Of a stretch of 21,610 bases of DNA, positions 2,877 through 20,359 are shown piece after piece (position 1 is the stretch's first letter; every line of letters starts with the position of its first letter). The notes below the pieces were generated by a model. The model did no database searches. It saw only the letters and a list, made by a program, of their open reading frames with translations, and was not told where the DNA came from. The stretch is from a virus. Where the stretch lies: the IMG/VR virus record IMGVR_UViG_3300020555_000006, positions 1 through 21,610 of that record, one strand, 5' to 3'. The position numbers and the translations under genes were made by a program.

Positions 2877-3934
2877 TGAGTCACCTGCGCAGTTACAAAG
2901 ATTTTTCCAGTAACGTAGGTGTGAACCAATCCGTTTGAGTCAGTTAGCTGTACATCGTAATAGCAGACCCCAGGAAGCTTCTTTGTCTGTGTAGCAGTTA
3001 GGTCTAGCTGCAGTGTACGCAACCCAGTCCCATCTACAGCTCCTACATTTGGGTAGGAGGTTGCAAAAGATGCAAGTAGGATTGGGCTATTTGGAGCAGG
3101 ACGAATCTCTGATTTAGCAACATAGTTATTGACCTCAAACCCAAACTGAATTTGCACTGAGTAGCTGTCTCCAGTGTAGACGTACAGGTCTTGAGTAAAC
3201 GCAGAGGTCAGTTTCTTTATACCGCCGTAGGTAGGTATTGGTATGTAAACGCGTTCCTTTGGTTCTCTGTCGTCTATCTCTTGAGGTACATAAATTGGTA
3301 CGTAATGGTTTGTGGTCTTAGAGATACGACGTAGACTAAACACATCAATCTTGTACAACCCAATACCAAGCTGTGAACACAGCTCTCTGTACTGGGTTTT
3401 ACGAACTTCAATCATTTGCATCAACTGACGGTAACGTTCAGAACGAGGAATCTGAACTCCGTCAGGAGCTGTAATATCAATGTCAAAGGATGCATCTGTA
3501 GCAAGAGTGTAAAGAGCTAAGGTAGAAGCCCAAACAAGTACGGGATATTCTTCCAACGTAGGCAGAGTTGTAATGGATACAGGACGACCATAAGAGTCTA
3601 CGTGGTTAGCAGTATGCTGTTGAAAAGCTGTAGTAACAAACTGTTCAATTTCAGCACTTGTAAAGTAACGATAATAATTTCCAGCAACAACAATTAACCG
3701 ACCTGAGATAGGAGCGGTATCAAAAACAATATATCCAGTTGCTTCTTCAACTTCTACGGTTGTAGAAACATCTACACCATTAACCGTAATAATTAAGTTA
3801 ATACCATCAAGAGGAGAGTACGGAACTAAGTAACGTGTTGAGGTTCCATCAGCTGTTGTTTGGTAAACAAATGATTTAGGGAAGTCACCAAGCTCGGACC
3901 GTAAACGGCCTGCCAAACTGGTAAGAATAGCCAC
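2873..3934 (-). CDS. Probable head-tail adaptor/tail protein
   Basis: A 353-residue protein if translation starts at the GTG at 3934, which has GGAGG four bases upstream. A TTG at 3961 would add nine residues but has no good ribosome site. It is the first gene after the strong terminator and lies between the head genes and the fibres. The N-terminal part is a beta region (YLVPYSPLDGINLIITVNG). A helical section follows (EYPVLVWASTLALYTLATD, then RQLMQMIEVRKTQYRELCSQ) resembling the helices of phage head-tail connector proteins. The last 110 residues are beta-rich (DLYVYTGDSYSVQIQF; VCYYDVQLTDSNG), like the ligand-type beta-sandwich of baseplate upper proteins. The adaptor role rests on position and fold impression; a tail tip protein is the main alternative. 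Confidence 0.6.
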   Translation of the reverse strand: MAILTSLAGRLRSELGDFPKSFVYQTTADGTSTRYLVPYSPLDGINLIITVNGVDVSTTVEVEEATGYIVFDTAPISGRLIVVAGNYYRYFTSAEIEQFVTTAFQQHTANHVDSYGRPVSITTLPTLEEYPVLVWASTLALYTLATDASFDIDITAPDGVQIPRSERYRQLMQMIEVRKTQYRELCSQLGIGLYKIDVFSLRRISKTTNHYVPIYVPQEIDDREPKERVYIPIPTYGGIKKLTSAFTQDLYVYTGDSYSVQIQFGFEVNNYVAKSEIRPAPNSPILLASFATSYPNVGAVDGTGLRTLQLDLTATQTKKLPGVCYYDVQLTDSNGLVHTYVTGKIFVTAQVTQ

Positions 3935-4510: not shown

Positions 4511-5641
4511 TTAGTTTGTGTAAACCTTGACGATAGCCTGGTCGGTGATAACACCAAGACCCCAGATTGCGTACCATGCAAGAGCGTGCTCACGACCGAA
4601 GTCAAGAACGCCACCGTCACGTAGTTCAACTGGAAGGCTGATTGCGTGACCAAATGCGTTGTCACCAATCATGATTGATTCGTAAACATCTGCTGAGTTA
4701 CCTGTAGCTGAAGTTAGGTAACCCTTTTCAGCTGTGTAATCTGCAGACTCTGGGTTTCCACCTGAGCCTGGAGCAGTGTTAGAAGACACAGGGATGCTAC
4801 CTGCTGATGCTGGTGCACCAACAAGTGATGATGTGGTGTATGAACCACCAGCAGCAAGCTTCTTAATCTGTGTTGTTTCAATGAAAACTACGTCGTATAG
4901 ACGACCGATTTCACCGAGCATGAAGTTACCTGGAGCAGCGTACTTTGTGACTTCAATGAACTCTGGGTTAGAGCGAAGGTCACGAGACTGCTTTGGGTGT
5001 ACGAACTGTACGTATGTCTCACCTAAGCGAGGGATGTTCTTACCAGCAAGGGTAAGAGCTGCATCCTTGATTGCGCCTGTTGTTAGCTTGTGGTTTCCAT
5101 CAAGCTGTGAGATTGCTGTAGCAGCTGTTCCTTCATCGTAGTTAGTGAAAGCGCCACCTGTGATGCCTGAGCGGTCATAACCAAATACTGCAGAAGTTGC
5201 TGCAGAAAGTGTGTTACGTGCTTGTACATCTAGGTACTGTGCCATGTGACGACCTAGAAGACGTGAGGCTGAAGCCATTACGTCATCAAATGATGCATTC
5301 AAAAGTAGTTCAGAAACTGCTACTGCGTAGCCGTGTTCTGCAACTGTGATTGCAATCTGCTCTGCTGTGAGAGCGTTAGTTGTCATACGGACACCTTCAG
5401 TAAGAGGTGATGGGTCTACTGCGAAGTTCTTGTAACGAAGGAAGTTCACGCGAAGACCAGGTGCAACACCTAGTTCAGTCTTCTTTACTGCGAACTGTTC
5501 AAAACGAAGAATTGGCATTGCCTGGAACAAAATTTCTTTTGACCAGATTGTTTGAATTGCCTGGTTCAAAGATGAGTTTGAACCAGAGTAAGCTGTTGGA
5601 GCACTCGCTAGTTGCGAGGAGCCTGTAATTGCACTTGCCAT
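4511..5641 (-). CDS. Major capsid protein, N4-gp56 family
   Basis: A 376-residue protein with the layout of the N4-gp56 family of major capsid proteins. It has an N-terminal section IWSKEILFQAMPILRFEQFA followed by GLRVNFLRYKNF, LTEGVRMTTNAL and ITVAEHGYAVAVSELL. A helical stretch comes next (RLLGRHMAQYLDVQARNTL), then VQFVHPKQSRDLRSNPEF and GEIGRLYDVVFIETTQI. The C-terminal part (IMIGDNAFGHAISLP to LAWYAIWGLGVI) is also typical. It forms the icosahedral shell on the scaffold encoded just upstream. It sits in the usual portal, scaffold, capsid order and is followed by a 10-base-pair hairpin. No separate prohead protease of a known phage family is found between portal and capsid. Confidence 0.93.
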   Translation of the reverse strand: MASAITGSSQLASAPTAYSGSNSSLNQAIQTIWSKEILFQAMPILRFEQFAVKKTELGVAPGLRVNFLRYKNFAVDPSPLTEGVRMTTNALTAEQIAITVAEHGYAVAVSELLLNASFDDVMASASRLLGRHMAQYLDVQARNTLSAATSAVFGYDRSGITGGAFTNYDEGTAATAISQLDGNHKLTTGAIKDAALTLAGKNIPRLGETYVQFVHPKQSRDLRSNPEFIEVTKYAAPGNFMLGEIGRLYDVVFIETTQIKKLAAGGSYTTSSLVGAPASAGSIPVSSNTAPGSGGNPESADYTAEKGYLTSATGNSADVYESIMIGDNAFGHAISLPVELRDGGVLDFGREHALAWYAIWGLGVITDQAIVKVYTN

Positions 5642-6549: not shown

Positions 6550-8286
6550 TTAATTCTTGTCTACTGCTCTCCTCTGAGGAATTTTAGTTCCGTAGGCTTC
6601 AGTGACAAGTCTTTCTCTGATTGCAGCTTCTTGGCTCTTTTCAATGCCCATCATTTGCTGCTGAGCTGGGTCGTTGACGCTGTCGTCAGTTTGAGGGCCA
6701 TTAATACCGTCTCCCATGATGTCTCCATCACCGAGTTCGGTTGGCTGCATAGGGATGGCAGAGTTTCCATCAGGTCCTGGCATCATTCCAGTCATATCCA
6801 TAATTGCTTTCTGGATTTGAATCTTTACGAGTTGCAAAGCGCCATCTGCGCCAGCATCGGAGATAAGCTCTTGACGAATCTCTTGTAGCTTCTCTTCTGG
6901 GAATTCCTCACCAAGTGTACGTAAAGCACCTTCTTTAGACTCAAGACCCATACCAATTTTAGTTTGAATCTCATTCAAGACAATTAACTTATCTAGTGGG
7001 AGAGGCTGAGGGAACTGAACAGAATTTTGGAAAGTAATTGGGTCTGAAAAATCAAGCTGTGTTAACTGGCCTTCTTTGATTGGGCCGTCTTCATCAGGGT
7101 TGTACATAAACTGCATAGGCTCTTTTAGAGCAAGAGTGCGAAGAGCAAGCTCGTTAATTCTTTCAATACCAACACCGTACTGAGCAACCTTCTGTGAGTA
7201 ACGGTTCATTAATGGCTGGTACTGAATAGAAAGTGCAACACCCGATGTATTAGAGATAGGTTGAACTTGACCCAGTGCGGTTTCTGGGATGTTCATTAGC
7301 TCGTGCATTGAGCGCTTTAGAAGTTCTAAGTACTTCAAGGCTCCGTCAATGCCTTGTGCACCGCCTTCCAGGTTGAAGACTTGAGCATCTTTTGGAAGAC
7401 CGCCCCAAACCTTCTTTGCGCCTTTTTCTAAGTTAGAAGCTTTAGCACCAACAATAACTGTCACAGGAGAAGCGTGGTAGTTAATGATGTCTGCTATGTC
7501 AGTTGATATCTCATTGTAAGCGCGGTTTATTGTAATGATGTCGTGTGCGTCTGGGAGACCCCAAGGTGAACCAGAAACTGGAACGTTCGGTATGTGTACA
7601 ACAGGAACTAACCCAAGTGGATTAGGACGAGAATCAATTAACTCATCGTTTATGTACTCTTCAATTGTGTCGTCTGTAAGAATTTCAGTGTAGGTAAATA
7701 CTTGACGTGTGCCTTCAAGGGATGTTCCCCAGAAACGATACTTCTGCTTAAAACGCAATAGACGCGTACGGTCGTGTGGGTGAAACTCAGGGAAAGCAAA
7801 AGAAGAGTTAAGAGGAAGAATACGAACTCTACCTGGGTGATTTCCTCCAGCAGAGTCTACCCAAGGTTCTTCGTACGCAATTTTTACAAAACAGTCCCCA
7901 GTAATGCCACCTTGTTGCCCCATCTCAAGTAGCACACGCATTTTTTCGTTGTCTACTTCCCAGATTCGTTCTAGGCGGTCTGGAATAATTGCTTCCGTTG
8001 CTTTTGGTGAACGGAAATGAATACCCTTACCAAATACAAAGCGTGATAAAAAGTCGTTAAATGCACGGTAGTAATTAACCGCAATTTGCATTTCGCCAGA
8101 CTCACGGCGATAGCCCCAGTGGTGCCCAAGGTACATTGCCCAGTTTAGTGAGTAACGGTTTAAGCGTGGACCATGTACTTCAAATTCTTCGTCAGCTAAT
8201 TCCACCAAACCCAGTGGAGAAATAGAGATAGTTAAATCGCTGGATGCGGCTCTATACGATGGTGGAGAAAAATCAAGATATGACAT
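6550..8286 (-). CDS. Portal protein
   Basis: A 578-residue portal protein. The portal dodecamer sits at one capsid vertex and is the channel for DNA entry and exit. Supporting segments are LNWAMYLGHHWGYRR near residue 50, VNYYRAFNDFLSRFVFGKGI near 90, and the wing/stem region with PLGLVPVVHIPN and SPWGLPDAHDIITINRAYNE. The MNIPETALGQVQPISNTSGV segment is typical of portals that contact the DNA tunnel. The tail is Met/Gln/Gly-rich and probably disordered. The ATG overlaps the stop of the upstream 88-residue gene by one base. It follows terminase after two small genes and precedes scaffold and capsid, the standard order. Confidence 0.92.
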   Translation of the reverse strand: MSYLDFSPPSYRAASSDLTISISPLGLVELADEEFEVHGPRLNRYSLNWAMYLGHHWGYRRESGEMQIAVNYYRAFNDFLSRFVFGKGIHFRSPKATEAIIPDRLERIWEVDNEKMRVLLEMGQQGGITGDCFVKIAYEEPWVDSAGGNHPGRVRILPLNSSFAFPEFHPHDRTRLLRFKQKYRFWGTSLEGTRQVFTYTEILTDDTIEEYINDELIDSRPNPLGLVPVVHIPNVPVSGSPWGLPDAHDIITINRAYNEISTDIADIINYHASPVTVIVGAKASNLEKGAKKVWGGLPKDAQVFNLEGGAQGIDGALKYLELLKRSMHELMNIPETALGQVQPISNTSGVALSIQYQPLMNRYSQKVAQYGVGIERINELALRTLALKEPMQFMYNPDEDGPIKEGQLTQLDFSDPITFQNSVQFPQPLPLDKLIVLNEIQTKIGMGLESKEGALRTLGEEFPEEKLQEIRQELISDAGADGALQLVKIQIQKAIMDMTGMMPGPDGNSAIPMQPTELGDGDIMGDGINGPQTDDSVNDPAQQQMMGIEKSQEAAIRERLVTEAYGTKIPQRRAVDKN

Positions 8287-10772: not shown

Positions 10773-11000
10773 CTACGCACGTTTCTTTAGTTCCTTGGCG
10801 ATTGCATTAAAAACTTCAGTTCCCAGTACAACTTCATCAAGAAGGTCGTTGTTGTGACTCTTCTGCCATTCTGTAATAAGTTTGCCAATCGTGTACATGG
10901 ACTGCTCCATCCACAGAATCAAGTCTGGCGTTGATATCTTTGAGACTCTCTTCTCTATCTGAGTCTGGGGCTGTCCATCCTGCTTCTTCCGTAAAATCAT
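10773..11000 (-). CDS. Small helical protein upstream of terL, overlapping frame
   Basis: A 75-residue protein. Residues 24-75 (TPDLILWMEQSMYTIGKLIT, then LLDEVVLGTEVFNAIAKELK) look like a genuine all-helical domain; the first 22 residues are less protein-like. The ATG at 11000 has GGGAAG nine bases upstream. For 164 bases it overlaps the 3' part of the gene at 10837-11244, in another frame. Its position directly before terL is where a small terminase subunit often lies. It is short for that family and no DNA-binding motif was recognised, so this is only a possibility. Confidence 0.6.
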   Translation of the reverse strand: MILRKKQDGQPQTQIEKRVSKISTPDLILWMEQSMYTIGKLITEWQKSHNNDLLDEVVLGTEVFNAIAKELKKRA

Positions 11001-11244
11001 CGTAGGTTACTTCCCGTGTGTTGAGTGCCGATTTAAGTGCGTCTTCTTCAGTTTTAAAGCCAGTCCACTTGCCGAAGGCTAGTGCTTTGTACTTAGGTAA
11101 TCTTACTAAAAAGGGTTCAGAAGTCCTAAAAGGTTCTTCTATTTCTTGCGTCCATCCACGCACAACAAACTTTTTGCCCCAAATAACAGGTAAGTCAATT
11201 AGTTGTACAAAGTGTTTTGGTCCGATGTTGTGTACCTTTGGCAT
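10837..11244 (-). CDS. Hypothetical protein, 3' end overlaps the next gene
   Basis: A 135-residue protein. Residues 1-85 look well structured and beta-rich (HFVQLIDLPVIWGKKFVVRG; PFLVRLPKYKALAFGKWTGF). The last 50 residues (ARLDSVDGAVHVHDWQTYYR onward) share DNA with the helical protein at 10773-11000 in another frame and look less protein-like. A +1 shift in the overlap would join the good part of this frame to the good part of the next; no slippery site was identified. It follows the KTSC gene without a gap. Function is unknown. Confidence 0.6.
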   Translation of the reverse strand: MPKVHNIGPKHFVQLIDLPVIWGKKFVVRGWTQEIEEPFRTSEPFLVRLPKYKALAFGKWTGFKTEEDALKSALNTREVTYDDFTEEAGWTAPDSDREESLKDINARLDSVDGAVHVHDWQTYYRMAEESQQRPS

Positions 11245-12018
11245 TTATCTTCCTCTTGGGTTTTTTCCACCCTTAGATGGGTTCTTACCACGTTTGCTTT
11301 GAGCAATTGTTTTGTACATAGTCTTAGTCTGTCCTGGAACTTTTCCTTTTACTGCAATTTGAGCACCACGACTATAGCGGTAGAACGCCTGCTGTGCTTT
11401 CTTAGACAGGCTTGATACATCTGCTGGACCACGAGGCTTAAAGTCAAGCATACGAGCAATGATAGCTCCCTTAGAACGGTTGGCCTTAAACGCAGCCCAC
11501 TCACCGCCTGAAACTTCGTAGTAGTTGTAGAAGGTTCCGTCGCGGAAAATAACCGTAAGTTTTTCTTCATCTTCATCGTAACCAGCAGCAACTGTTCTTG
11601 GTCGGTCTGGATTAGTAGTAGAGGTTGGAACTACAGTGATATCAGCTGGAGATGTATCTTCCATCTCATCTGGTTGAAAACCAGGTATTCTCCAGTTAGA
11701 TGGATTGTCTAACTGGTCTGTGTTCATATTATGATTAAAGTCAATAATCTCGTATACGCTACGGCCAGGTGCATCGCCCTCTGCGGTTCTGTAGTCTTCA
11801 CCAGCCCAATTAGCGTAGTTTGTAGGATTGTAATAATCCATTGACTGACTATCATCAAACATGATGTCAGAGATGCGGTTGAAAGAACCTTTAGAAGATG
11901 CGGTTACTCCGCCTTGAAAATCATCACCGAAAATATCTCGGCCTATTGCATTCATCATTTCCTGAGCAGACGGAGCAGCCCTCCGAGAAGAGCTGCTTCC
12001 GCCTGTAGGACGTACCAT
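11245..12018 (-). CDS. KTSC-domain protein
   Basis: A 257-residue protein. Residues about 140-192 (AGYDEDEEKLTVIFRDGTFY, then EWAAFKANRSKGAIIARMLD) match the KTSC domain. That domain is a small beta-rich fold known from the C-terminus of some lysyl-tRNA synthetases and from many standalone and phage proteins, and its role is poorly defined. The N-terminal 130 residues are polar and probably disordered (GGSSSSRRAAP; SMDYYNPTNYANWAGEDYRT). The C-terminal 40 residues are strongly basic (KRGKNPSKGGKNPRGR), suggesting nucleic-acid contact. It stands between the Ig-like protein and the overlapping pair before terL. Confidence 0.75.
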   Translation of the reverse strand: MVRPTGGSSSSRRAAPSAQEMMNAIGRDIFGDDFQGGVTASSKGSFNRISDIMFDDSQSMDYYNPTNYANWAGEDYRTAEGDAPGRSVYEIIDFNHNMNTDQLDNPSNWRIPGFQPDEMEDTSPADITVVPTSTTNPDRPRTVAAGYDEDEEKLTVIFRDGTFYNYYEVSGGEWAAFKANRSKGAIIARMLDFKPRGPADVSSLSKKAQQAFYRYSRGAQIAVKGKVPGQTKTMYKTIAQSKRGKNPSKGGKNPRGR

Positions 12019-15028: not shown

Positions 15029-15192
15029 TATTCTTCGCGGTTACGCAGCGGATACGTGATAGCCCATGCAACTAATGTCGCAATAATTGCGTAACCAACA
15101 ATTGTTTTTGCAGAACCATCTAGAACTACCCAAGCAATAAACATGCCAAGTAATGTCCATAGTTGGTCAATCATGTCCTTTAGTACTTTCAT
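15028..15192 (-). CDS. Two-helix mini membrane protein, holin candidate
   Basis: A 54-residue protein, below common length cut-offs. Its ATG overlaps the TGA of the 846-residue exported protein (ATGA), so it is translationally coupled to that gene. Residues 11-25 (LWTLLGMFIAWVVLD) and 31-48 (IVGYAIIATLVAWAITYP) are two membrane segments joined by a short turn. The ends are charged (MKVLKDMIDQ; RNREE). It could be a holin, an antiholin or a partner of the exported protein. The coupling makes a link with that protein as likely as a lysis role. Confidence 0.7.
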   Translation of the reverse strand: MKVLKDMIDQLWTLLGMFIAWVVLDGSAKTIVGYAIIATLVAWAITYPLRNREE

Positions 15193-17729
15193 TGCTTGCG
15201 TCTCCTTACGCCTTTGCTATCACCTGATGGGCCTCCACCACCAGAACTTCCACCCCCACCAGAAGAGGAACTTCCAGTAGAGCCTGTTGCAGCAGCGGCT
15301 GCATTTATCGCAGCACCTGCAGCAACAACCGTTGCAACAACCGCTTCGGTTGCTTCTTCACGTTCTTCGTCTGACATATCTGCGCCAATACTTCCAAGAG
15401 CTGCTAAAGCTGCGCCTGGGTCTGACAGTGCTGTTGCTAATAGTTCTCCAGGATTTTCTAACAACTCAATTTGTGCAGCAACTTCAGCGGTGATTACAAC
15501 TGCATTACCGTTTTCGTCGGTACGCACATCAACTGGTGTTTCTGCAGGCAAGTCTTTGTATTCAATTCCTGCTTCTTGTATAGCAGATGCAGAAAGTGCT
15601 TCACCAGGAGCAACCGACTCTAGAAGTGCAGTTACAACAACCGTTTTTTGTTCTTCAGTTAGTTTACCTTCTTCGGCAGCCTTCTTCAGTGCTTCTTCTT
15701 CTGCTTTTTTAGCAGCTTCTTCTGCTGCAAGTTTTGCTGCTTCAGCTTTAGCATCTTCTTCAGCTTGTGCCTTTGCTTCAGCTTCTGCTGCTGCTTTGTC
15801 TGCTTCTGCTTTTGCAGCTTCTTCAGCTTTAGCTTTTGCTTCAGCTTCTGCTGCAAGACGGTCTGCTTCAGCTTTAGCTGCAGCTTCTTCAGCAGCAATT
15901 CGTTCTGCTTCTAAGCGTGCTTCTTCTTCAGCCTTTGCTTTTGCTTCTGCCTCTGCAGCAAGTCTGTCAGCTTCTGCTTTTGCAGCCGCTTCCTCTGCTG
16001 CTATACGGTCAGCCTCTGCTTTAGCTGCTGCTTCTTCAGCAGCAATTCTTTCTGCTTCAGCTTTTGCAGCAGCAGCTTCTGCAGCTAATCTGTCAGCTTC
16101 AGCTTTTTCTGCAGCGGCTTCGGCAGCTAACCTTTCAGCTTCCGCTTTTGCTGCTGCTTCAGCTGCTGCTGCATCTCGTGCTGCTTGTTCTGCTGCTGCT
16201 TTCTCCGCAGCAATACGTGCGGCTTCTGCTTCAGCTGCTAACTTCTCTGCTGCTTCTTTTTCAAGCCTTGCTTTCTCGGCTGCTGCAAGTGCTGCAAGTC
16301 TTTCTGCTTCTGCTTGAGCTGCCGCTTGCTCTGCTGCAATACGTGCAGCTTCTGCGGCCGCTGCTTGTGCAGCAGCGATTCGTGCGGCCTCTGCAGCGGC
16401 TGCTTGTTCAGCGGCAACTCGTGCTGCCTCTGCTTCTGCTGCAACTCGTGCGGCCTCTGCTGCTGCAGCTTGTTCTGCTGCAACTCTTGCAGCCTCTGCT
16501 GCCAATGCTGCTTGTCTTGCTGCTTCTGCAGCTGCAGCTTGCTCTGCAGCTATGCGGGCTGCTTCTGCTGCGGCTGCTTGTTCAGCTGCTATACGAGCCG
16601 CTTCTGCTGCTGCAGCTGCGGCTGCTTCTGCAGCAATACGAGCCATGTTAGGAACTAGCAATGACACTTCATTGGAACGACCAGAGTAAAGACGTTGAGT
16701 GTCGTTGTCCCCTCGGATAGAGAAGGTGTATGTAGAGTCTAAACCACCACTACCAGCAAACACTTCTTGTCCTATAGATACAGTTGTGTTTAACGCATTA
16801 GCATCTCCAACATTACCTGTTGCAATACCCCAACCTGCAGAAGTGCCGTTAGTAAAGAAGATTGCATAACGCTCTGGAGGTGTTCCTCCGCTTGGGGCAT
16901 TCCAAGTAAGAGTTACAGTGCCACCATCTATTGTTGCAATTAAGTTTGTTGGTGCGTTGACCACAGGTGCGACATAAGGAGGGATAGCTGCTAAAGCTGC
17001 TTGTGCATTAGCAAGTCGTTGTTGTGCTGCTTGCAAGACGGCTAATAAAGCAGGGTCTTTAATCATCGTTGGAGTTGTTGCACCAAACCATGCGGCAGGC
17101 GTTACTTGCCAGTTTCCAGACGGCTCTGTGACGTAAAGCGTTGAGCAAGCTCCGCCACCGTTCTCGTAGAACCAGGCGTCAATAGCATACGGAGTTCCTG
17201 CAGTTAGTTGAACCCCTGCACCCCAGGCACCGTTGCATCCTTTATCAACCCACTCATCAATTGCTACTTGACCGTTTACTGTCATGTAGAAACCGTCATC
17301 TGCAATATTCATGAACTGGTATTGACCAGTATTAGGGACGGTAATAGTTCCGTAATAGTGCACAGTTACATGGTCTGAGTTGCATCCAAGTACTGAACCG
17401 CTACCCCAGTTAGATGCAATCTGTGACACAGTCAATGTTGCACATAGGTTTGCTTCGTCAGGTGTTCGGCTCATTGTGTTGTTATAAACTTTTGCAGTTA
17501 AACCTGAAGCAGTAGTTGCAGTTGAAGTGTCAGGTATTAACAGGGTGTCATAGTTTGTTTGTGCAATACTCACAGCTGCTTGTGCAGCGTTGACTTCTTG
17601 AGTCGCTGCAGCAACTCGTGCGTTGTACTCTTCAAGAGTATTTGCGTATGCTGGTGTGACAAATACTGCGGGTAAAAGTGCCGCAGATATAAATACGAAT
17701 AGTGCTGCGAATTTTCGCAGTGCTTTCAT
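15189..17729 (-). CDS. Exported PA14/fibronectin III protein with long TolA-like coiled coil
   Basis: An 846-residue protein, the largest here. Residues 1-29 are a clear Sec signal peptide (KALRK, hydrophobic core, then TPAYA cleavage site), which is rare in phage late genes. Residues 30-65 are a short coiled coil. About 75-215 form a PA14-type beta domain (NIADDGFYMTVNGQVAIDEW). The protein's only four cysteines (96, 116, 165, 195) lie there, suited to two disulfides outside the cell. About 256-360 are a fibronectin III domain (GGTVTLTWNAPSGGTPPERY). Residues 362-685 are Ala/Glu/Lys repeats. About 700-800 form a helical domain, followed by an Ala-rich hydrophobic helix, a Gly/Ser linker and RRRK. 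PA14 often binds carbohydrate. Surface anchoring, exclusion or lysis roles are inference. Confidence 0.85.
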   Translation of the reverse strand: MKALRKFAALFVFISAALLPAVFVTPAYANTLEEYNARVAAATQEVNAAQAAVSIAQTNYDTLLIPDTSTATTASGLTAKVYNNTMSRTPDEANLCATLTVSQIASNWGSGSVLGCNSDHVTVHYYGTITVPNTGQYQFMNIADDGFYMTVNGQVAIDEWVDKGCNGAWGAGVQLTAGTPYAIDAWFYENGGGACSTLYVTEPSGNWQVTPAAWFGATTPTMIKDPALLAVLQAAQQRLANAQAALAAIPPYVAPVVNAPTNLIATIDGGTVTLTWNAPSGGTPPERYAIFFTNGTSAGWGIATGNVGDANALNTTVSIGQEVFAGSGGLDSTYTFSIRGDNDTQRLYSGRSNEVSLLVPNMARIAAEAAAAAAAEAARIAAEQAAAAEAARIAAEQAAAAEAARQAALAAEAARVAAEQAAAAEAARVAAEAEAARVAAEQAAAAEAARIAAAQAAAAEAARIAAEQAAAQAEAERLAALAAAEKARLEKEAAEKLAAEAEAARIAAEKAAAEQAARDAAAAEAAAKAEAERLAAEAAAEKAEADRLAAEAAAAKAEAERIAAEEAAAKAEADRIAAEEAAAKAEADRLAAEAEAKAKAEEEARLEAERIAAEEAAAKAEADRLAAEAEAKAKAEEAAKAEADKAAAEAEAKAQAEEDAKAEAAKLAAEEAAKKAEEEALKKAAEEGKLTEEQKTVVVTALLESVAPGEALSASAIQEAGIEYKDLPAETPVDVRTDENGNAVVITAEVAAQIELLENPGELLATALSDPGAALAALGSIGADMSDEEREEATEAVVATVVAAGAAINAAAAATGSTGSSSSGGGGSSGGGGPSGDSKGVRRRKQ
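15675..16646 (-). repeat. Ala/Glu-rich 13-14-residue coding repeats
   Basis: The repeat section of the exported protein covers about 325 residues. The N-terminal half uses a 13-residue unit (EAARIAAEQAAAA). The C-terminal half uses a 14-residue unit (KAEADRIAAEEAAA). The pattern resembles the TolA central helix. Base composition is strongly biased (runs of GCT/GCA codons), which makes long false open frames on the other strand. The region is prone to slippage and to misassembly. Confidence 0.9.
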
Positions 17730-17993: not shown

Positions 17994-18289
17994 TAGTAAC
18001 TACCGCCATCTCCGTAACTTCCAGCAGATGTTCCGCCCATTCCACTATAGTCACTTGCTGATTGACCTGAAGAAGGTTCTAGATTACCTGGCGTATTAGT
18101 TCCTGAAGACTGTGTTTGTAAAACATTTCCAGCCATAAGTGAGCCAGTCATATATGGGTAGGAACCCCACCAGTAACCATTGCCAACAAATCCTCGTTCC
18201 CCTACAGGGCGAGCAAATCTTTGACGCTGTTGGTCTTCTGCGGTCTCAATTGCTCCGTCAAACTGATGACCTAAGTTTCTGTTGCTCAT
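17993..18289 (-). CDS. Gly/Ser/Tyr-rich hypothetical protein
   Basis: A 98-residue protein. The first 35 residues are charged (NLGHQFDGAIETAEDQQRQR). The rest is low-complexity with aromatic and Gly/Ser residues (GNGYWWGSYPYMTGSLMAGN; SDYSGMGGTSAGSYGDGGSY). Such tails are usually disordered and sticky. The ATG overlaps the TGA of the 49-residue gene upstream (ATGA). No domain is recognised. Its tail composition resembles that of the 94-residue fibre-cluster protein at 888-1172, but similarity of composition is not evidence of homology. Confidence 0.5.
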   Translation of the reverse strand: MSNRNLGHQFDGAIETAEDQQRQRFARPVGERGFVGNGYWWGSYPYMTGSLMAGNVLQTQSSGTNTPGNLEPSSGQSASDYSGMGGTSAGSYGDGGSY

Positions 18290-18435
18290 GATGTTTTATC
18301 CAAGTTCTCTTTGTTGTATGCACCTACGTCTTGCTTTACTGCTCCGTACATTCCTAGCCCATAAAACTGTTGACCAGAAAGTGGTTGCCACAACTTGTAA
18401 TAGTCAACCATTGTCAGTGGGTTATCTGTCGGCAT
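18286..18435 (-). CDS. 49-residue hypothetical protein
   Basis: A small gene that length filters miss. It reads MPTDNPLTMVDYYKLWQPLS, continues through GQQFYGLGMYGAVKQDVGAY and ends NKENLDKTS. It overlaps the 3' end of the DUF7455-like gene by 14 bases, and its TGA overlaps the next ATG (ATGA). The overlaps on both sides and the protein-like composition support it. The ribosome site (AAGG) is weak. Function is unknown. Confidence 0.55.
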   Translation of the reverse strand: MPTDNPLTMVDYYKLWQPLSGQQFYGLGMYGAVKQDVGAYNKENLDKTS

Positions 18436-18628
18436 AAATAAATAAACCTTCTGGGTCATGCACTTGAACTGACTGTTGAACTAAAGTGTACCCAGTTTCC
18501 CGTGCGTGATGTCCGCAAAAATAAAGCTCCCCAGTTAACAAGGTTGCACGAACCATTGCTCGTGCAGCACACTTGTCACAGCGGTCTAATGCTGTTAACT
18601 CGCGTTGTGCGTGGGCTGTGTCTATCAA
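18422..18628 (-). CDS. DUF7455-like zinc-binding protein
   Basis: A 68-residue protein starting with TTG at 18628, overlapping the TGA of the gene before it (TTGA). LTALDRCDKCAARAMVRATL followed by GELYFCGHHA is the pattern of DUF7455 proteins, which are small actinobacterial proteins with a C-x2-C...C-x-H-H metal site. Their function is not well established. A host-type family in the phage supports an actinobacterial host. It is one of five small zinc-binding proteins in the window. Confidence 0.8.
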   Translation of the reverse strand: MIDTAHAQRELTALDRCDKCAARAMVRATLLTGELYFCGHHARETGYTLVQQSVQVHDPEGLFIYADR

Positions 18629-18768
18629 TTGCTAAACCCTGGGCTTGGTGGCTTACTTGCAGTAGCTCCAGCAAAGTTATCTTGTGCAGCGTTTATCGCA
18701 AGAGGCTTTTCTCCTTCAAACTTTTTAGTTTGAGGCATTGCTCCTTTGAACTCTTCATTAGATAACAT
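18625..18768 (-). CDS. 47-residue hypothetical protein, possibly leaderless
   Basis: A small gene: MLSNEEFKGAMPQTKKFEGE, then KPLAINAAQDNFAGATASKP and PSPGFSN. It is the first leftward gene after the divergent promoter region, and its TGA overlaps the TTG start of the DUF7455-like gene. No Shine-Dalgarno is visible before the ATG at 18768. TAAACT lies exactly six bases upstream, the spacing of a leaderless actinobacterial mRNA. An inner ATG (residue 11) has GGAG only two bases away, which is too close. Function is unknown. Confidence 0.55.
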   Translation of the reverse strand: MLSNEEFKGAMPQTKKFEGEKPLAINAAQDNFAGATASKPPSPGFSN

Positions 18769-18933: not shown

Positions 18934-19102
18934 GTACGAATACGCCTGTATCCAGTGCGATTTAGATTACGAAAAAGAGCGTAGCATCCATGATGCAGAA
19001 CCTGAATACATCTGCAACAAGTGTGGCTACGCTCTTCAACGTGTCTTTAACTCTTTTGGCCTTCAGTTCAAAGGCTCAGGGTTTTATAAAACTGGTGGTT
19101 AG
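18926..19102 (+). CDS. FmdB-family zinc ribbon protein, rightward
   Basis: A 58-residue protein: MPKYEYACIQC, then EYICNKCGYALQRVFNSFGL and FKGSGFYKTGG. Two CxxC knuckles (C8/C11, C30/C33) and the 'QFKGSGFY.T' end are hallmarks of the FmdB family of putative regulatory zinc ribbons. GGAG lies seven bases before the ATG. It overlaps the preceding zinc-finger gene by eight bases, so the two form a rightward mini-operon. Its TAG overlaps, on the opposite strand, the TAA of the leftward membrane-protein gene (19099-19101), so the genes meet tail to tail with no terminator visible between them. FmdB-like proteins occur in phages and bacteria; their molecular role is not settled. Confidence 0.88.
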   Translation: MPKYEYACIQCDLDYEKERSIHDAEPEYICNKCGYALQRVFNSFGLQFKGSGFYKTGG

Positions 19103-19440
19103 TTAGAGTTCTCTTCTTTGGTCACAAGTCCACCAAACTTAGTTGCCTTGTCTGCTGCTTGACGTTCTTCAACTTCAACGTCTGCAACAGTTTTAGCGCC
19201 TTTATCAACAGTTGAAAATGCAGCGTTGATTTCATCAAGGCTAAGCTTTCCATCGTCCATAAATGCACGAGCTAACTTCTCAACAACTGCGGCGACCGCA
19301 GTCAGACCAGCAACTAGTACTGCTTGTGCTACTGGAATACCTGCAACGGCACCAGCTCCAATTACTGCAAGACCGCTTGCTGCAAACACCGCAACAATAC
19401 GCATCAATACATTCTTCAAGGTTGACATTAGATTCCTCAT
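19099..19440 (-). CDS. Small membrane protein with EF-hand-like loop, holin-like
   Basis: A 113-residue protein if it starts at 19440, where ATG overlaps the TGA of the coiled-coil gene (ATGA) and AGAGGAG lies eight bases upstream. An ATG at 19428 is a close alternative; an open frame to 19512 is less likely. Residues about 11-52 are hydrophobic with little charge (MRIVAVFAASGLAVIGAGAV; AQAVLVAGLTAVAAVVEKL), one or two membrane helices. FMDDGKLSLDEINAAF follows, a partial EF-hand-like loop lacking the first two acidic ligands. The tail is charged. It resembles holin-type small phage proteins and lies 0.99 kb after the endolysin. Confidence 0.7.
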   Translation of the reverse strand: MRNLMSTLKNVLMRIVAVFAASGLAVIGAGAVAGIPVAQAVLVAGLTAVAAVVEKLARAFMDDGKLSLDEINAAFSTVDKGAKTVADVEVEERQAADKATKFGGLVTKEENSN

Positions 19441-19793
19441 CCGTTTTTCTCCTCTGTTCCGTAGTTTATCGTAGTGACGGTATCGCTGTACTCTTCTAGT
19501 GCTTCTAGACATACTTTTTGCTCAGACATTAAGAAATCCTCAATCTCAGTACGACGAAGAGCAATCTGCGCCTCTGTTTGAGAAATTACCTCTTCAGAAA
19601 GTTCATCACGGTGCTCGGTATACTGCTCAACCATGTAGGTCAATACAGACTGCATAGTTGCTGCTTTTAATTGGGATTCTTCCCAACGCTTTTTAATTTC
19701 GTTTATTTTCTTCTCTTTAATAAAAGCATCTGCCTCTAGCTGCTTTTCAGCCCTCTTTAGTTGAGATTTTGATTGGTAGTGTGTTTGGTCCAT
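19437..19793 (-). CDS. Coiled-coil hypothetical protein
   Basis: A 118-residue, mostly helical protein. Residues 8-45 (KSQLKRAEKQLEADAFIKEK) and about 60-100 (EHRDELSEEVISQTEAQIAL) show heptad-like charge and hydrophobic spacing. There is no signal peptide and no membrane segment. Its stop overlaps the start of the membrane protein gene downstream, suggesting joint expression. It follows the HslV-like gene by 17 bases. A regulator of the holin-like protein, a scaffold-type helper or an adaptor for the peptidase are all possible; none is shown by the sequence. Confidence 0.6.
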   Translation of the reverse strand: MDQTHYQSKSQLKRAEKQLEADAFIKEKKINEIKKRWEESQLKAATMQSVLTYMVEQYTEHRDELSEEVISQTEAQIALRRTEIEDFLMSEQKVCLEALEEYSDTVTTINYGTEEKNG

Positions 19794-19810: not shown

Positions 19811-20359
19811 CTATTTGTATTGTTCAACAATTTGGATTGGGCCAGAAGTGTTTACATCTAGCTTTGCTGCAATCTCAATTGCCTTCTCTGGCTTGGCTCC
19901 TGCGTAAATAGCGCCAATAGCGTAGTCAGAACCAGAACCAACGCCATAAATGCCATCTGCAGAACGGCAAACGGATAAATCATCGGCAATATCAAATACT
20001 TCTCCAGAAACAGCCATAAGGAAGTTAAACCGACCTTCTCCTGCTTTGCCGCCTTCTTTACCCTCATTGAAGTCGTAGCCATTATCAGTAAGGCATTTAC
20101 GAAGAGAAGGCAGAGCTTTAGTAATCATAAAGTGATAAATGTCTTCAGAGTCTTTCAAACTTAGTTTTGGTGGGTTCCACATATGTTGCACAACATCGCA
20201 AGGTTGAACTTCGCCACTTCCTGCAATTAAGAACGCTCCACGTTTTGCTATCTTCTTCATATCGGGATGGTTGTAACGACGACCACCATCACCAGTCACC
20301 TGATTATCTGCAGCCATAACACATTTGTCTTTGTATTGAACAGCAACGATAGTTGTCAT
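19811..20359 (-). CDS. HslV/proteasome-like Ntn-hydrolase peptidase
   Basis: A 182-residue protein aligned by eye with HslV, the peptidase ring of HslUV. After removal of Met1 the N-terminus is TTIVAVQYK, matching the TTI-V start whose Thr1 is the nucleophile. Asp18 (MAADNQ), Lys36 (DMKKIAKRG), the glycines of LIAGSGEV and the GSGSDYAIGA loop match HslV active-site positions (Thr1, Asp17, Lys33, SGS region). The length is close to that of HslV. No HslU-type unfoldase is present. GGGGG serves as ribosome site; a terminator ends 21 bases upstream of the start. It might process phage proteins, possibly proheads, or host proteins. Peptidase family is firm, role unknown. Confidence 0.87.
   Translation of the reverse strand: MTTIVAVQYKDKCVMAADNQVTGDGGRRYNHPDMKKIAKRGAFLIAGSGEVQPCDVVQHMWNPPKLSLKDSEDIYHFMITKALPSLRKCLTDNGYDFNEGKEGGKAGEGRFNFLMAVSGEVFDIADDLSVCRSADGIYGVGSGSDYAIGAIYAGAKPEKAIEIAAKLDVNTSGPIQIVEQYK

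Follow-up and report, generated by a model that had tools for sequence, protein, structure and literature searches.

A proteasome-like peptidase in actinophages: family, gene contexts and possible function

HslV (ClpQ) normally requires the unfoldase HslU. In HslV, helix H2 is followed by a short linker, whereas BPH, the bacterial proteasome homologue, a cellular protein of Thiobacillus and Cupriavidus (PDB 5ovs, 5ovu), has a long acidic pore loop (PMC5777263) and no known unfoldase (PMC5777263; PMC8665760). Purified BPH failed on the model substrates that its authors tried (PMC5777263). Phage-borne proteasome homologues were described by Fuchs, Alva and Lupas (2021; PMC8665760) and include PPH, with about 140 residues and without helix H2, and AAH, for which no Actinobacteria-specific phages were found. 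Beyond this sequence survey, we found no open-licence paper on the function of phage proteasome homologues.

Here, we describe a phage-borne peptidase gene in a stretch of viral DNA of 21,610 nucleotides (IMG/VR record IMGVR_UViG_3300020555_000006), hereafter called the window. The genes needed for its interpretation are:

4511-5641, minus strand: major capsid protein of PHROG 1357, sharing 62% identity with its counterpart in Streptomyces phage LuckySocke
5679-6428, minus strand: scaffold-like protein of 249 aa between portal and capsid, named from position and composition
6550-8286, minus strand: portal protein (SPP1 type)
19099-19512, minus strand: small protein that includes a hydrophobic stretch and probably starts internally, near 19440
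19437-19793, minus strand: 118-aa helical protein of the 'MS(K/N)xQxK' type, directly downstream of the peptidase
19811-20359, minus strand: proteasome-like (PHROG 1040) N-terminal-threonine peptidase, 182 aa
20426-21169, minus strand: endolysin (CHAP and peptidoglycan-binding domain), directly upstream of the peptidase

Family and fold of the phage peptidase

The peptidase gene occupies the coordinates given in a preliminary description of this DNA and shares the minus strand with the endolysin, terminase, portal, scaffold and capsid genes. Its translation, MTTIVAVQYKDKCVMAADNQVT, starts with Met-Thr-Thr-Ile-Val. The median dN/dS of about 0.08 is among the lowest in the window and indicates strong purifying selection; hence, the open reading frame is a real, constrained gene and not a chance one. 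Met1, Thr2, Thr3, Ile4, Asp18, Lys36, Gly47 and Gly49 are kept in all 60 distinct IMG/VR relatives, and Asp18, Lys36, Gly141 and Gly143 are invariant across 53 diverse alignment rows including BPH and E. coli HslV. The only departure from Thr at position 2 comes from a BPH row whose first residues are missing. Residues 141-143 form a Gly141-Ser142-Gly143 motif. The HslV-type catalytic positions and the proteasome-type active site noted previously are thus supported by conservation both in close relatives and in diverse rows, with Thr2, Asp18 and Lys36 (the latter two equivalent to Asp17 and Lys33) as expected for Ntn hydrolases of the proteasome superfamily.

The profile of PHROG 1040 ('peptidase HslV family') matches residues 1-180, spanning the length of the protein, with 116 bits (E 3.9e-33). 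In contrast, the NCBIfam HslV models TIGR03692 and NF003964 reach 21.3 and 21.6 bits against cut-offs of 157.75 and 137, and Pfam Proteasome (PF00227) scores 20.5 bits, just below its cut-off of 22.4. A profile comparison with one E. coli HslV sequence aligned only 45 C-terminal columns and says little, the profile being shallow. The PHROG 1040 match and the HslV scores far under the cut-offs place the peptidase in the proteasome superfamily and in a known phage family, not in HslV proper. The HslV-like identity proposed earlier therefore stands in the broad sense and falls in the strict one (21 bits against 137-158). Besides the equivalog score, an encoded HslU partner and the short linker after helix H2 are missing, while the fold, the TTI start, the Thr-Asp-Lys set and the GSG loop are shared with HslV.

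Each of 18 related records holds exactly one PHROG 1040 copy, and a scan with a peptidase profile yielded at least 591 IMG/VR loci. The members in T5-like and other phages have the same family profile, N-terminal Thr, catalytic residues and orphan gene; the T5-like ones differ in forming a distant branch, about 30% identical over the first half, and their version (AAS21) is matched by 170 phage records. Like PPH and AAH, the peptidase is a phage-borne group I proteasome homologue without a known AAA+ partner (PMC8665760), but its length of 182 aa and the two helices that precede its pore loop do not fit the description of PPH. This kind of enzyme is already known from Fuchs et al. (2021) and from public annotations, where T5-like phage records bear the label 'peptidase HslV family'; contrary to what had been supposed, it is not unusual in itself.

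The AlphaFold monomer model (pLDDT 89.6) has a proteasome fold, with Z scores of 16.7-18.1 to BPH, HslV and 20S beta subunits. The best PDB match is BPH 5ovs (Z 18.1), and HslV reaches 17.3-17.5, a difference that amounts to a tie by the standard of the structure-comparison method itself. The pore loop covers approximately residues 93-110 (about 18 residues) and is partly disordered in the model, with residues 102-107 at pLDDT <50; in the alignment, a short linker takes the place of a long pore loop in E. coli HslV. The phage peptidase thus resembles BPH in fold, catalytic layout, long pore loop and lack of a known unfoldase, but BPH is cellular, its loop is strongly acidic and that of the phage protein less so, and the sequences are 20-24% identical.

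No HslU was found among the open reading frames of the window, in agreement with the preliminary description, nor in 18 records of related phages (38-129 kb), which may be incomplete. Furthermore, no AAA_2 domain of the HslU/ClpX kind scored above the cut-off in 14 related records, in line with the orphan status suggested before. Weak AAA_2 matches in two records were considered as a phage AAA+ partner and rejected, as they belong to AAA_5 (MoxR/CobS-like) ATPases. Two scans of genome contigs gave no bacterial relative. From the BPH-like long loop and the absence of HslU from the related records, we naturally infer that the peptidase would act independently of HslU.

Hosts and gene neighbourhoods

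WhiB marks actinophages, and WhiB is encoded in all 14 related records searched (29-129 kb), suggesting that the related phages are actinophages. The nearest isolated full-length homologues, with 39-40% identity, are found in OX376641 and OX376640, which are Planktophila phages LanE43AprF5 (F5) and E7. With these two, phages of Ca. Nanopelagicales were brought into culture for the first time (PMC10202952). A further phage with a relative of the peptidase, DSL-LC01, has its host recorded as Actinomycetia. Whatever its subfamily, this large actinophage branch extends the known distribution of phage-borne proteasome homologues, because Fuchs et al. (2021) found no Actinobacteria-specific AAH phage.

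The gene lies in several contexts. In the branch of the window, the endolysin gene is followed by those for the peptidase, the small helical protein and the hydrophobic protein, whereas in F5 and E7 the peptidase follows the portal; in 80/80 relatives of the F5 branch, it is located 5-18 bp after the portal and before scaffold and capsid. A third group has the peptidase after a RuvC-like resolvase (named from sequence, not by profile). In DSL-LC01 it precedes the WhiB gene, and in the T5-like Pantoea phage AAS21 it is situated between the genes for thymidylate synthase and RNase H. On a tree of 53 rows, whose deep forks are poorly resolved, 11 changes among six context labels are needed.

The 118-aa helical protein adjoins the peptidase in most relatives with endolysin context and is not obligatory in other phages. 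An obligate partnership was considered since the small 'MSKTQDK' helical protein adjoins the peptidase in 20/20 cases of one branch. A fixed two-gene system was rejected, as the related form of this protein in the RuvC context occurs without the peptidase in 24 of 40 loci (within the fetched stretch) and in six of ten whole records. Proteins of the MSKTQDK/MSNRQDK family (window 19437-19793; L074, L181, L418-L453) are frequent in these actinophages, whether or not the peptidase is present, and many of them end in GIQxD. The product of 19099-19512 matches PHROG 26427, which bears the label nuclease, at E 5e-23, and its holin match is weak.

Several further genes deserve mention. The window encodes at 15189-17729 a protein of 846 aa that begins with a signal-like segment and combines a PA14 domain (E 4.5e-10) with a very long coiled coil rich in Ala; it has homologues in 34 related loci and is possibly a surface or lysis protein. 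The open reading frames at 10773-11000 and 10837-11244 share 164 bases, which they read in different frames; homologues of both occur in 18-20 related loci, and the two are possible overlapping genes. In the block upstream of the terminase, 11245-12018 encodes a KTSC-domain protein (E 8.5e-10). In phage AAS21 (L092), a gene at 18103-18717 annotated 'ATP-dependent Clp protease' adjoins holin and lysozyme.

Loss and exchange in place

The position after the portal was surveyed in 78 loci with an F5-type portal and downstream sequence. The peptidase is the next gene in 66 of them, is found elsewhere in one and is absent from 11; where inspected, the peptidase-free slots hold an unrelated protein of 75-86 aa. 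Moreover, the near-complete records G030 and G031, whose capsid is present (70% identity), have no match to PHROG 1040 anywhere, an absence that is strong and not final, as IMG/VR records may be incomplete. Where the peptidase is retained, it may differ strongly between close relatives, with portals 96% identical and peptidases only 33% identical. Rank correlations of identities are 0.90 for portal and scaffold and 0.84 for portal and capsid, against 0.23 for peptidase and scaffold and 0.09 for peptidase and capsid (calculated from 26 and 17 loci, with non-independent pairwise values).

The post-portal slot appears as a hotspot (L301, L321, L214, L243, L264, L292), occupied by an F5-, window- or DSL-LC01-type peptidase or by an unrelated 75-86 aa protein; two of these unrelated proteins, of 76 and 79 aa, were tested and gave no PHROG match. 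In a separate case, a 4.5 kb contig (L058; IMGVR_UViG_3300020044_011660) carries two different peptidase genes, at 1737-2288 on the plus and 3337-3888 on the minus strand, which are either a chimera or a real pair.

A single copy, strong constraint, loss, varied gene blocks and replacement in place together characterise the peptidase, by comparison of the loci, as an accessory gene exchanged between phages. Part of the swapping pattern could result from ordinary recombination between conserved flanks, and the neighbouring genes of the post-portal region vary in length too. We found no description in the open-licence literature of the actinophage branch, of the portal slot or of the exchange in place, which to that extent are new.

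Possible functions

The slot after the portal is the place of the prohead protease in many phages. Hence, after the portal adjacency in the F5 branch (5-18 bp, 80/80 relatives) had been seen, we at first favoured a head maturation protease that digests the scaffold or trims capsid or portal, that is, a proteasome fold serving as prohead protease. In the IMG/VR records searched, we did not find a conventional S78 prohead protease, and, as pointed out before, no conventional prohead protease lies between portal and capsid of the window, where the sole open reading frame encodes the 249-aa scaffold-like protein (its place carries the annotation 'scaffolding protein' in LuckySocke). An elongated helical scaffold would, moreover, suit an ATP-independent ring peptidase. 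The reverse tests of loss, exchange in place and correlation speak against this idea, which the preliminary description had raised. The peptidase is not a constant, co-inherited member of the head module, as it is missing from near-complete F5-like genomes whose capsid is 70% identical and does not co-diverge with scaffold or capsid. Other branches place it by the endolysin or RuvC. D'Alembert and DSL-LC01 have annotated conventional head maturation proteases alongside this peptidase. Compared with the window and F5 capsids, those of the Streptomyces phages LuckySocke (62%), BRock (61%), Immanuel3 and FlowerPower (both about 55%, partial coverage) are related, yet these phages show no homologue of the peptidase; LuckySocke-type phages share the portal-scaffold-capsid order with the window, and no Streptomyces phages are among the matches of the homology searches. 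Coexisting head proteases, capsid relatives free of homologues, loss and swapping thus indicate that the peptidase is probably not a head protease, and we regard such a role as unlikely.

Host-facing roles, i.e., counter-defence, takeover or turnover, fit the data better than virion maturation. In counter-defence or host takeover, the peptidase would destroy a specific host protein, with versions swapped because hosts differ. The exchange of peptidases with identities as low as 33% among phages whose portals are 96% identical, loss in sister phages and strong constraint within lineages are consistent with this possible, if tentative, reading. On the other hand, PADLOC gave no hit for the peptidase, the target is putative, ordinary mosaic recombination at conserved flanks might equally produce such a pattern, and neighbouring genes in the region likewise vary in length. 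We hold loosely the speculative proposal of an arms-race tool in phages of abundant freshwater Actinobacteria, in which divergent peptidases swapped at the fixed post-portal slot would each destroy a different host defence or regulatory protein without an unfoldase. In general turnover late in infection, a ring peptidase without a cap would remove unfolded proteins or, in nutrient-poor cells, break down host protein so that its amino acids can be reused. This reading is suggested by the BPH-like architecture without unfoldase and by the location in a nucleotide-metabolism block of the T5-like phage, but seems somewhat doubtful and alone would not explain replacement by very different versions. 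It is very unlikely that the peptidase depends on HslU and borrows an AAA+ unfoldase of the host: HslV normally needs HslU and no phage HslU was found in the window or related records, but the peptidase is not an HslV orthologue and its long pore loop is unlike HslV. In addition, Actinobacteria, the host phylum indicated by WhiB, have no HslV mark in the distribution table of Fuchs et al. (PMC8665760). Connectase of the same superfamily provides a precedent for a ligase or amidase instead of a protease (PMC8665760); this is likewise highly improbable, as connectase lacks the first helix pair that the phage peptidase model has.

Our preferred explanation, with a probability of roughly 0.5, is that the peptidase belongs to the HslV/BPH branch of the proteasome superfamily and is an HslU-independent, exchanged accessory enzyme whose substrates most likely lie among the proteins of the infected cell. 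Judging from conservation, the host would remove Met1 and thereby expose Thr2, which might serve as nucleophile together with Asp18 and Lys36. The subunits would most likely assemble into a ring or double ring, as in BPH, with a cavity probably guarded by the long flexible pore loop, and may cut unfolded or selected proteins without HslU. Location in several gene blocks, replacement in place and absence make host-cell targets likelier than phage capsid, scaffold or portal, and candidates are host regulators, defence proteins, or damaged or surplus proteins late in infection. Several points run counter to this explanation: the F5 branch keeps the peptidase exactly in the usual prohead-protease slot, the search of IMG/VR records brought up no S78 prohead protease, a protease of broad specificity need not co-evolve with its substrate, and purified BPH failed on the substrates tried (PMC5777263).

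The open-licence papers found do not assign a function to any phage-borne proteasome homologue. The question can be tested with cultured Planktophila LanE-43 and its phages F5 and E7, and with natural, near-complete sister phages that have or lack the gene. The swapping in place and the loss of the peptidase speak against a capsid protease and point to a host-facing activity.
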